A stretch of DNA of 64,000 nt from assembly GCA_947258555.1 (NCBI GenBank), contig CAMYJF010000004.1, positions 1 to 64,000 on the forward strand. The letters run 5' to 3'. The notes under the pieces were generated by a model, which saw nothing but the letters and a program-made list of their open reading frames with translations, was not told where the DNA came from and searched no databases. Both the position numbers and the translations under genes were made by a program. Origin of the DNA: an uncultured Eudoraea sp. (GTDB lineage Bacteria; Bacteroidota; Bacteroidia; Flavobacteriales; Flavobacteriaceae). Positions 50,391-54,229 of the stretch are shown here, one piece after another. Every line of letters begins with the position of its first letter. Within the stretch, counting starts at the first letter, position 1.

Positions 50391-50419
50391 ACAAAAAGAG
50401 CCTTGGAATCAAGGCTCTT
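50391..50419 (-). terminator. Rho-independent terminator (minus strand) upstream of trhO
   Basis: AAGAGCCTTG (50396-50405) pairs perfectly with CAAGGCTCTT (50410-50419) around a 4-nt loop, followed on the minus strand by a U-rich TTTTTGTTTTTT run. It must end a transcript that starts upstream of it on the minus strand, that is, between here and recA. Confidence 0.9.
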
Positions 50420-50432
50420 AAAGGACCACCCC

Positions 50433-50573
50433 TCAGGTGCTTTCTTTTTCATAGAGTACTTCGTAAGGAGATGGCCATCTTTGCCCAAGATCTATAATAA
50501 TCCTGGAAGAATATGTCGAGATAATCCATCTGTTATACCTAAGATACATTCCGTTCAAAAAGGTTGCTTTCAT
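50433..50573 (-). CDS. Possible small protein of 46 residues
   Basis: An ATG-to-TGA frame starting [18 protein letters not shown], then a serine/arginine-rich middle and ending [13 protein letters not shown]. It is basic and aromatic-rich. The stop is 14 nt from a perfect terminator on the same strand. No homologue recognised and no clear promoter seen upstream, where the sequence runs into recA. Either a real tiny gene or a small RNA that happens to contain a frame. Confidence 0.35.
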
Positions 50574-51621: not shown

Positions 51622-51716
51622 AACACTAATTTCCTGTAGGGTACATCCCTTTTCAGCTGTTATAAGGTAAAGCAACCTTTAATCAACCTCAACATCTTAT
51701 TTTAATACAGGAATTG

Positions 51717-52133
51717 ATGATGAAGAAGATCGTTATTGTTTGTCTGATTTTTGGGATGTTGCTGTTCAATGGTTGTGATATTGATTCGGCAGAACCCAAT
51801 TTCTTTTTTGTGCCCCTTGTAATCACTTCAGTCGAATTGCCGGAATACTTTGAACATGGGGCGGTTTATACCATAAATGTGACCTATGCGCGGCCCAATT
51901 CATGTGTAACCTATGAAGGATTTGATATTAATTCTGATGGGGAATCCATTCGCTATATAACATGCATTGGAGCCGAATTCAATGGGGAAATATGTACACA
52001 AGCCGTATATTACGGTCAGGCGAGTTTTGAATTTCAGGTGCTAAACCTACAACCGTATACATTAAAGTTCTGGGGAGGGGAAGATGCACAAGGAAATCCT
52101 ATTTACCTGGACTTTGAAATTCCGGTAAATTAA
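51717..52133 (+). CDS. Predicted lipoprotein of unknown function
   Basis: 138 residues from the ATG at 51717 (a second ATG follows immediately). The lipobox is in MLLFNGCDIDSAEPN, cysteine about residue 20. The rest is a single beta-rich domain with a possible disulfide pair (NSCVTYEGFD and YITCIGAEFNGEICTQ), resembling small Ig-like secreted domains. It lies 38 nt upstream of an ECF sigma factor on the same strand and may be part of that signalling unit. No family recognised. Confidence 0.75.
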   Translation: MMKKIVIVCLIFGMLLFNGCDIDSAEPNFFFVPLVITSVELPEYFEHGAVYTINVTYARPNSCVTYEGFDINSDGESIRYITCIGAEFNGEICTQAVYYGQASFEFQVLNLQPYTLKFWGGEDAQGNPIYLDFEIPVN

Positions 52134-52171
52134 AACAATGACGAGCTAATAACATTAATCTGACCAACAAT

Positions 52172-52702
52172 TTGATTCTTGAAGAGCTCATAAAGAAATG
52201 TGTCGAAAGAGATCGATCTGCTCAGGAGTATTTGTACCGCAAATACGCCCATAAATTATATGGGATTTGTTTAAAGTACTCCAGGAATAAAACGGAAGCA
52301 GAAGATAATCTTCATGACAGCTTTATGACTATATATGATAAAATAGGTCAATTTAAGTCTCTCGGATCCTTTGAAGGCTGGATGAAACGGATCACCGTCA
52401 ATACCATCTTGCAGAAATACCGTAAGGAAGAATACCTGGCTCAGCTTCCCGAACAATATCAAGCGCTACATGAAGATGCGTACCAACCTTTGGAAGTAAG
52501 CCTGAACACACTATTACAATATATCCAGGAATTACCTAATAAGTACAGATTGACGTTTAACCTCTATGTCCTTGACGGATATAGCCATAAGGAAATCAGT
52601 CAACAGCTAGGCACGTCTACTGGAACGTCTAAATCTAATCTGGCCCGTGCCAGGACGATTCTGCGTGAAAAAATCAAAAATCAAAAAATAAATATTGCAT
52701 AA
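52172..52702 (+). CDS. ECF-type RNA polymerase sigma factor
   Basis: 176 residues from a TTG at 52172; no in-frame ATG precedes the sigma-2 region, so a TTG, or the CTG at 52160 that would give LTNNLILEELI, must be used. Sigma-2 region: LYGICLKYSRNKTEAEDNLHDSF and GWMKRITVN. Sigma-4 region: PNKYRLTFNLYVLDGYSHKEISQQLG followed by SKSNLARARTILREKI, a helix-turn-helix. It redirects RNA polymerase to target promoters. The barrel-containing partner gene starts 9 nt after its stop, the usual sigma/anti-sigma layout. Confidence 0.92.
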   Translation: MILEELIKKCVERDRSAQEYLYRKYAHKLYGICLKYSRNKTEAEDNLHDSFMTIYDKIGQFKSLGSFEGWMKRITVNTILQKYRKEEYLAQLPEQYQALHEDAYQPLEVSLNTLLQYIQELPNKYRLTFNLYVLDGYSHKEISQQLGTSTGTSKSNLARARTILREKIKNQKINIA

Positions 52703-52711
52703 CCTAACACA

Positions 52712-54154
52712 ATGGAAAAAGAAAATGTAGATAACCTGTTTCGGGATACCCTGGACGATTTTGCCCAGAACCCGGACCCAAAAGTTTGGGATAGAATACA
52801 GGTTTCGCTTGATCAGAAAGCGCAGAGGAAACGACGAGTGATTCCGCTTTGGTGGCAATTGGGTGGCGTTGCGGCCGCATTGGCATTGATGCTATTCCTT
52901 TCTCTCCCGGGTGCCGAATCAGATCCTTCAGTTCCTGCCAATGAGGATATTACAACAATATCTTCTGAAATAAATCCGTCCAGCGAAGAATCAGAAGAAC
53001 CCAATCTATCTAAGGAAACCAAGGGTGAATTGACGGAAGTGAACAAGTCATCAACCCCAACTGGGGTCGGCACTGGTTCTGCCCTTCCGCCTTCAAACGA
53101 AGTTGCTGTAACCCTGGCTACCTCCAAAGCCGAAGAAAAATCAACAATCTCTGCCGAACCTAAGACTGAAGTGTATTCTTCAATTACCAAATCGGATCCC
53201 GCTGTTGCACAGATAGATTCAGACACGGAAACCATATCTGGAGATCTTATTTCAGATATCCCGCTTGTATCGGAAACTTTGAGTACAGAAGAAGAAATTC
53301 AAGGAATCCCTGCTAACCAATCCACTGCAGTAGCAGAAGTCCAAGAAGAGGAAACTGCAAAAGAATACAGAGATCTATTTGAAGAGATCAGCGAGGAGGA
53401 GATTCCTGAAGGAAGTGATTCGGAAGGAAAATGGGCTGTCGGGCCAAGCATTGCTCCCGTTTATTACACAGCCAGTGGTACAGGTTCTCCTATAGATAAT
53501 TCCTTTGTAAATAATGAAAAGGCAGGGAATATAAACATGAGTTATGGGGTAAAAGTTACCTATAATCTCTCGGATAAATGGCAATTGCGCTCTGGACTCC
53601 ATAAAGTAGACTACACCTATGACACAAACGATATCATATTCTCTTCTTCTTTATCTACAACGGCTAGTACCACTATGAGAAATATAGATTTTGCATCTAC
53701 ATCAGACTATCTCGTTGTTGAATCAAATTCTTTACCTATCACCAAAGCAGGGGCGACAGGGTCGAACGAAATTGCGGCAAAAAATCCAGCCCGTTCGGGA
53801 ACAATGATACAGGAAATGGGCTATTTGGAAATTCCGGTAGAAATTAATTATGTATTGCTGGACAAAAAAGTAGGTGTAAACGTGGTAAGCGGCGTAAGTT
53901 CCTTGTTTCTTCTAGACAATGTTATAAATCTGGAATCTGAAAATGGTACCACGGAAATGGGTACGGCTAATAATATCAATTCTCTGAATTTCAGCGCGAA
54001 TTTCGGATTAGGAATAGATTATGATATATCTAAAAAAGTAAAACTTCAATTAGAGCCTCTGATAAAATACCAGCTTAATACTTTCTCAAATACCTCCGGG
54101 CAATTCAGGCCATATACTCTTGGTATTTATAGTGGTATTCAATATAAGTTTTAA
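52712..54154 (+). CDS. Dual membrane-spanning anti-sigma-like protein with C-terminal outer-membrane beta-barrel
   Basis: 480 residues in four parts. Residues 1-43 are cytoplasmic (MEKENVDNLFRDTLDDFAQN, then PKVWDRIQVSLDQK), like short anti-sigma domains. Residues 44-65 form one membrane helix (WWQLGGVAAALALMLFLSL) after a basic KRR patch, giving N-in topology. Residues 66-239 are a Ser/Thr/Glu/Pro-rich linker without structure motifs. Residues 240-480 are beta-strands of an outer-membrane barrel ending in IYSGIQYKF with the aromatic terminal residue. There is no cleavable signal peptide, so the chain should span both membranes and bind the sigma factor encoded just upstream. This matches the reported dual membrane-spanning anti-sigma (Dma) family of Bacteroides; the signal sensed is unknown. 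Confidence 0.8.
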   Translation: MEKENVDNLFRDTLDDFAQNPDPKVWDRIQVSLDQKAQRKRRVIPLWWQLGGVAAALALMLFLSLPGAESDPSVPANEDITTISSEINPSSEESEEPNLSKETKGELTEVNKSSTPTGVGTGSALPPSNEVAVTLATSKAEEKSTISAEPKTEVYSSITKSDPAVAQIDSDTETISGDLISDIPLVSETLSTEEEIQGIPANQSTAVAEVQEEETAKEYRDLFEEISEEEIPEGSDSEGKWAVGPSIAPVYYTASGTGSPIDNSFVNNEKAGNINMSYGVKVTYNLSDKWQLRSGLHKVDYTYDTNDIIFSSSLSTTASTTMRNIDFASTSDYLVVESNSLPITKAGATGSNEIAAKNPARSGTMIQEMGYLEIPVEINYVLLDKKVGVNVVSGVSSLFLLDNVINLESENGTTEMGTANNINSLNFSANFGLGIDYDISKKVKLQLEPLIKYQLNTFSNTSGQFRPYTLGIYSGIQYKF

Positions 54155-54200
54155 TAATATTGTTGGTTAGTTAATTTGCTTTCCCCGCAAATTAAAATAA

Positions 54201-54229
54201 ACGCCCTGAATTCCTTCAGGGTGTTTTTT
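54201..54229 (+). terminator. Rho-independent terminator of the sigma/anti-sigma unit
   Basis: ACGCCCTGAA (54201-54210) pairs with TTCAGGGTGT (54215-54224; one G-U pair) around TTCC, followed by a T-run. It ends the plus-strand unit just before the convergent acyltransferase stop. Confidence 0.9.

Follow-up and report, generated by a model that had tools for sequence, protein, structure and literature searches.

How could an event at the outer membrane act on a cytoplasmic sigma factor through one continuous protein? The question is raised by a locus of an uncultured Eudoraea sp., which lies in a 64,000-nucleotide stretch of DNA analysed here as a whole and referred to as the window. A preliminary description of this DNA had placed a lipoprotein gene, an ECF sigma factor gene and, after a gap of 9 nt, a gene for a 480-residue protein in a row, and the open reading frames are as it stated. 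We use the family name Dma for the 480-residue protein throughout. The source genome, a 2.73-Mb draft in 104 contigs, encodes a single Dma-type protein according to a whole-genome search, and a scan of genome contigs yielded only two genomes of the same genus.

A predicted operon conserved beside recA

The features of the locus are as follows.

50393-50541, - strand: candidate small RNA running between the divergent promoter and its terminator; three helices with covariation
50542-50567, - strand: divergent second promoter copy on the far side of recA, GCAACC-N15-TATCT, one mismatch; same place in at least 15 relatives
51672-51697, + strand: predicted sigma-dependent operon promoter; -35 GCAACC at 51672-51677, 15-bp spacer, -10 CATCT at 51693-51697
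51717-52133, + strand: 138-aa lipoprotein without a Pfam family; Cys20 in the lipobox, Cys63 and Cys93 invariant; kept 5' of the sigma gene in relatives
52172-52702, + strand: 176-aa ECF sigma factor of the Das type with a TTG start; assigned by Pfam and by a tree with Das1/Das2-type sigmas
52712-54154, + strand: Dma-type anti-sigma, whole gene, 480 aa
52712-52840, + strand: Dma residues 1-43, predicted sigma-binding cytoplasmic segment; length and sequence conserved, homologous to Bacteroidales Dma N-termini
52841-52909, + strand: Dma residues 44-66, predicted inner-membrane helix; preceded by basic residues, AxA cleavage site absent
52910-53419, + strand: Dma residues 67-236, putative tether; E/S/T-rich, unconserved in sequence, 117-296 residues long in relatives
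53420-54151, + strand: Dma residues 237-480, predicted outer-membrane beta-barrel, probably of eight strands; C-terminal Phe
54201-54229, + strand: intrinsic-terminator-like hairpin and T run 3' of dma, read directly from the sequence

The sigma factor matches Sigma70_r2 (E 9e-13) and Sigma70_r4_2 (E 3e-16) in Pfam, and its gene adjoins dma in all 30 aligned loci. Flavobacteriaceae widely share a gene order in which recA is followed by the lipoprotein, sigma and dma genes and then by plsC and trpS, and the lipoprotein gene is present at 21 of the 30 loci, several of the others being truncated upstream. Judged by this gene order, the lipoprotein, sigma and dma genes are one conserved Flavobacteriaceae operon beside recA, behind a near-invariant promoter.

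Homologues of the lipoprotein have in common the lipobox, a conserved F-K/R-F-W-x-G-like motif and, apart from the lipobox cysteine, two cysteines that never vary. We considered whether the protein could be NigD and rejected this: neither NigD_N nor NigD_C domains were found in it, a search of 20 homologues gave no NigD match, and profile comparison with hhalign reached 7%. The suggestion that the lipoprotein is an extra component of the system gains support from the shared operon, the shared promoter and its conservation. At one locus from a different bacterial family (L029, 2822-3232, + strand) the lipoprotein gene lies 3' of dma rather than 5' of sigma, still adjoining the pair.

Domain architecture of the 480-residue protein

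Homologues of the Dma protein were detected in 37 of 60 related genomes; because 34 of the 60 carry it at E<1e-30, the protein is not a chance open reading frame. Across 30 aligned homologues the N-terminal segment, in which W26 and L33 are invariant, measures 41-45 residues and the barrel 230-250, and the spacer between helix and barrel varies as widely as listed above. In the window's protein this spacer is acidic and in the aligned set it is rich in E, N, K, S and T and disorder-like by composition (n=30). Conserved ends joined by a variable spacer are the sequence pattern expected of a tether.

A hydrophobic helix spans approximately residues 44-66 and follows directly on KRKRR. It is the single hydrophobic helix in 30/30 homologues, each with basic residues on its N-terminal side, and no signal-peptidase site was found after it in the 30 aligned sequences. 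Cleavage of the N-terminal helix, an outcome that the preliminary description had held against its own reading, is thus one that the sequence evidence speaks against.

The same data bear on an arrangement in which the protein is a single-membrane anti-sigma whose barrel is cut off after export, the two halves acting apart and no chain crossing both membranes. In favour of such a cut, tethering a barrel to the inner membrane places high demands on topology. However, the helix has no signal-peptidase site after it, and N-terminus, tether (always at least 117 residues) and barrel stay in one open reading frame across Flavobacteriaceae and Bacteroidales; published work, moreover, treats the Dma family as spanning both membranes (PMC13088901, PMC13114119). 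We consider the severed form improbable and retain the continuous chain.

At the C-terminal end, Pfam places the barrel family PF13568 at residues 239-441 (E 3e-7), and among the 30 homologues barrel models at E up to 0.1 are found in 29 (PF13505) and 23 (PF13568). The hydrophobic alternation of the barrel region exceeds that of 2000 shuffles and is not seen in the tether, and the C-terminal residue is Phe in 30/30 homologues. The region contains three two-residue turns and four longer loops, and therefore eight strands are the probable count; where the preliminary description had allowed for the lack of a barrel of eight or more strands, the sequence evidence instead favours eight. An AlphaFold model of the full-length chain from a three-sequence alignment reached a pLDDT of only 28.5, so the eight-stranded barrel is read from sequence patterns. 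Both genes share a frame in the window, and reading the TAA as Q joins them into one chain; this read-through sigma-Dma fusion, again modelled with three sequences, gave a pLDDT of 43, and neither model was good enough to use. A search of solved structures with the Dma protein returned no match. Pfam and the 30-homologue alignment together bear out the earlier division of the protein into cytoplasmic segment, helix, linker and barrel.

Membership in the Dma/Reo family

Dma2 of B. thetaiotaomicron begins with an anti-sigma domain, continues through a helix and a long disordered tether, and ends in a barrel; an ECF21 sigma gene adjoins, and the family is confined to Bacteroidota (PMC13088901). 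The Reo/EcfO pairs of P. vulgatus and B. fragilis are of the same kind (PMC9308784, PMC13114119), and Reo reaches across all compartments (PMC13114119). For comparison, Bacteroidales genomes were found via their NigD genes and their sigmas by profile. Two of the loci recovered in this way carry the published dma2 operon order of sigma, dma, DUF4943, DUF4858 or its position, and a nitronate monooxygenase-like gene, the domain names having been checked in L140 and DUF4943 in L141.

Profiles of the flavobacterial proteins were aligned with a Bacteroidales set that includes these dma2-operon orthologues. The N-termini matched at 98.1% (hhalign, E 8e-14) and the barrels at 99.2% (E 2.5e-19), and a control with the halves swapped, N-terminus against barrel, gave no match (E 0.3-0.4). 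A tree of the sigmas puts the window's sigma, with its orthologues, into a single clade (support 95/83) that also contains Das1-like, Das2 and Dma3-like sigmas, and the other ECF sigmas of the source genome fall outside this Das-type clade.

Each family feature open to sequence comparison is thus found in the window's pair: an anti-sigma N-terminus homologous to known members by profile comparison; a single helix following it in all 30 homologues; a long tether, disordered to judge by length, non-conservation and composition; a C-terminal barrel homologous to known members by PF13568 and hhalign; and an ECF21-type sigma (Das) placed by its 9-nt adjacency and by the tree. On these sequence comparisons the 480-residue protein belongs to the known Dma/Reo family, and homology of N-terminus, barrel and sigma supports the earlier view of a flavobacterial relative of Dma. 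Residues 1-43 are predicted to bind and inhibit the sigma, and the chain to span both membranes with its barrel inserted in the outer one. We think it very probable that the locus represents the Dma/Reo-Das/EcfO system in its flavobacterial version, working as set out in the mechanism below.

Related chains with other partners were also observed. L142 (1266-2924, - strand) encodes a Dma3-like single chain of 553 aa with an N-terminal ECF sigma and a C-terminal outer-membrane barrel. At L074, L075, L079 and L080 the same anti-sigma N-terminus and helix are fused to vWA/YfbK domains, not to a barrel; these fusions also carry Plug and, mostly, CarboxypepD_reg domains, and a sigma of the same clade adjoins. 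The 797-aa protein of L077 joins an anti-sigma N-terminus, helix and vWA domain to a sorting tail for type IX secretion (Por_Secre_tail), a single chain that would link the cytoplasm with the secretion system or the cell surface. The 752-aa protein of L076 is about as long, and its C-terminus is tail-like. Two further ECF sigmas of the source genome (L147 and L148, on contigs C26 and C19) are related and lie outside the Dma-sigma clade, each followed by a protein of about 200 aa with one predicted helix and a secreted, adhesin-like gene.

A near-invariant promoter ahead of the operon

Upstream of the lipoprotein gene we found the motif GCAACC-N15-CATCT, with identical boxes and an exact 15-base spacer in 22 loci of the first set examined. 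It is present at all 18 first-set loci that have the lipoprotein upstream and enough DNA. A second set, sampled across the phylum and sharing a few loci with the first, shows it again at most of its loci, with variants of the -10 box. The exact motif was not found at L014, L052 and L054. It has only 3 matches in the 2.73-Mb source genome. The two away from the operon were taken as probable chance matches rather than targets: one overlaps an opposite-strand open reading frame and has no start nearby, and the other lies within an open reading frame. Beyond the two copies flanking recA, no convincing regulon member was found in the source genome.

A stricter motif, ACGCAACC, occurs in 27 of 60 relatives, all of them Dma-bearing: 27 of the 34 genomes with Dma carry it as against 0 of the 26 without. 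A Fisher test gave a p of about 1e-10; it counted 27 Dma-negative genomes rather than 26, which leaves the order of magnitude the same. Over the 60 relatives the strict motif has about 86 copies and a reversed control 4. From this co-occurrence and from expected autoregulation we infer that the window's sigma reads GCAACC-N15-CATCT.

The assignment is built on these two grounds, and the promoter might instead belong to another ECF sigma, with the Dma operon one target of several. A different ECF motif, SM6, indeed precedes both yceA, where the promoter was mapped experimentally, and an ECF/anti-sigma pair in F. psychrophilum (PMC9723704). Against another sigma stand the absence of the strict motif from 26/26 Dma-less relatives and its position at the head of the Dma operon almost everywhere, and we regard this alternative as unlikely. 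We did not equate SM6 with the window's promoter: although yceA (trhO) lies downstream of SM6, the -10 element is CGT in the one (PMC9723704) and CATCT in the other. Recognition by the Das-type sigma next to Dma remains the reading we adopt.

A divergent copy and a short transcript

A second motif copy lies beyond recA and points away from it, as in the relatives counted above. Since one-mismatch matches are common in the source genome (37, the 3 exact ones included, against 20 in a control), it is the conserved position that supports this copy. An intrinsic terminator closes the divergent unit ahead of trhO, and a separate promoter of trhO, of housekeeping type (TAnnTTTG), comes next; the mapped yceA promoter of F. 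psychrophilum offers a lead, and only that, on this recA-trhO unit.

What the unit encodes differs by genus. In eight genera it specifies a 30-residue peptide, MKFFK...NSNCKADGG, with variation highest at third codon positions. In the window's group a conserved open reading frame is lacking, and the unit folds into three helices. Of these, helix 2 is paired in 8/8 sequences, with three compensated pairs, and over the whole structure double changes occur in 14 of 29 pairs, above every shuffle; three of these eight sequences come from one genus, making the effective number smaller. Single-sequence folding gave a z of -2.5, and an Rfam search with the RNA returned nothing at threshold. In the window's group the divergent unit is therefore put forward as a candidate sigma-dependent small RNA. 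Divergent promoter copies by recA, leading into the structured RNA or the CKADGG peptide by genus, are recorded at L191-L205 and in the window at 50393-50567 (- strand).

A predicted lipoprotein regulon in relatives

Of the other motif copies, 35 are followed by a start codon no more than 60 nt away, and 31 of these 35 lie ahead of lipoprotein genes. The background, counted with the Dma operons themselves left out, is 20 of 143 open reading frames (enrichment p 5e-17). Many of the motif-linked lipoproteins start C-S/N-D-D, which resembles the surface-export signals SDDDD and SDDFE of B. fragilis and F. johnsoniae (PMC5080379), and by this likeness they are probably surface-exposed. A family of lipoproteins of about 408 aa lies directly 3' of the motif in four genera (L222, L225, L246, L250).

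Proposed mechanism

In the mechanism we propose, residues 1-43 would hold the ECF sigma in the cytoplasm, and one chain would run on from there: residues 44-66 would cross the inner membrane, the flexible acidic tether would cross the periplasm, and the eight-stranded barrel would sit in the outer membrane. The trigger would be an outer-membrane disturbance, whether faulty barrel assembly, barrel displacement or a ligand, which would free the sigma by altering the cytoplasmic end, either through pulling or through proteolysis. Signal and release step are what we infer here. The freed sigma would then recognise GCAACC-N15-CATCT, and expression of its own operon (lipoprotein, sigma, anti-sigma) would rise; as an operon under its own promoter encodes both sigma and anti-sigma, the response would feed back on itself. 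In relatives the freed sigma would also raise the probably surface-exposed lipoproteins and the short transcript divergent from recA.

One version of the release step, which leaves the identity of the parts unchanged, is regulated proteolysis: the barrel or a lipoprotein partner would only expose a cleavage site in the tether, and inner-membrane proteases would then free the sigma, as for RseA. Many single-membrane anti-sigmas are released in this RseA-type manner, and a tether that is long and apparently disordered would be easily cut; yet no conserved block that could serve as a site-1 cleavage motif is seen in the tether of the 30 aligned homologues. We hold this version to be a serious possibility, if somewhat short of an even chance. 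The earlier wording that the chain acts without a proteolytic relay, for its part, finds nothing to support it.

More broadly, and tentatively, the Dma-sigma pair of Flavobacteriaceae may be an outer-membrane stress circuit with a logic like that of enterobacterial sigma-E, in which a self-limiting operon, a set of surface lipoproteins and a short dedicated transcript divergent from recA (structured RNA or CKADGG peptide by genus) are all driven from one near-invariant promoter.

Comparison with known systems

The Dma-type regulator is already known from gut Bacteroides; in the flavobacterial case a lipoprotein, a promoter that hardly varies and a candidate small RNA accompany it. The family has so far been studied in a few gut species, and these three additions make the system testable in a new bacterial group. 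The promoter, near-invariant and easily recognised, is a ready reporter for a Dma system in free-living bacteria, and the flavobacterial member adds a predicted regulon of lipoproteins, of the same kind as in Bacteroides, and a candidate sigma-dependent RNA.

The closest comparison is with Dma2/Das2 (BT_1558/BT_1559) of B. thetaiotaomicron, which shares with the window's pair its domain order, the adjacent sigma and a homologous N-terminus and barrel. The operon partners differ: DUF4943/DUF4858 lie downstream of Dma2, whereas the window's operon has a different, conserved lipoprotein upstream. The link to vesicles is known only from B. thetaiotaomicron, and both the vesicle and the PUL roles are features of the Dma2 side.

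Dma1, reportedly the subject of a PNAS 2024 study, and its sigma Das1 have the same architecture, as does Reo/EcfO of Bacteroides fragilis and Phocaeicola vulgatus, and NigD lipoproteins belong to their regulon. The Reo/EcfO pair reacts to antibacterial toxins that stress the envelope (PMC9308784, PMC13114119), and nigD lipoprotein genes are driven by EcfO (PMC9308784). In the Bacteroidales locus L131, NigD lies directly 5' of the sigma gene, as the lipoprotein does in the window, but the flavobacterial lipoprotein has no detectable NigD homology. The regulons compare in the same way, the NigD regulon of Bacteroides having lipoprotein targets as in flavobacteria, but different proteins. At L133 a NigD gene lies directly 5' of a related ECF sigma with no Dma adjoining. 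The flavobacterial promoter and divergent RNA are without counterpart in the published Reo/EcfO and Dma accounts examined.

Two other designs set the window's pair in context. In Dma3, sigma and barrel form one chain whose sigma belongs to the same clade, whereas the window has separate sigma and anti-sigma genes. In FecI/FecR an outer-membrane event likewise reaches a cytoplasmic ECF sigma, as proposed for the window's pair; there, however, a separate TonB receptor and the inner-membrane FecR are used, while here one chain would serve, in an operon without a TonB receptor gene.
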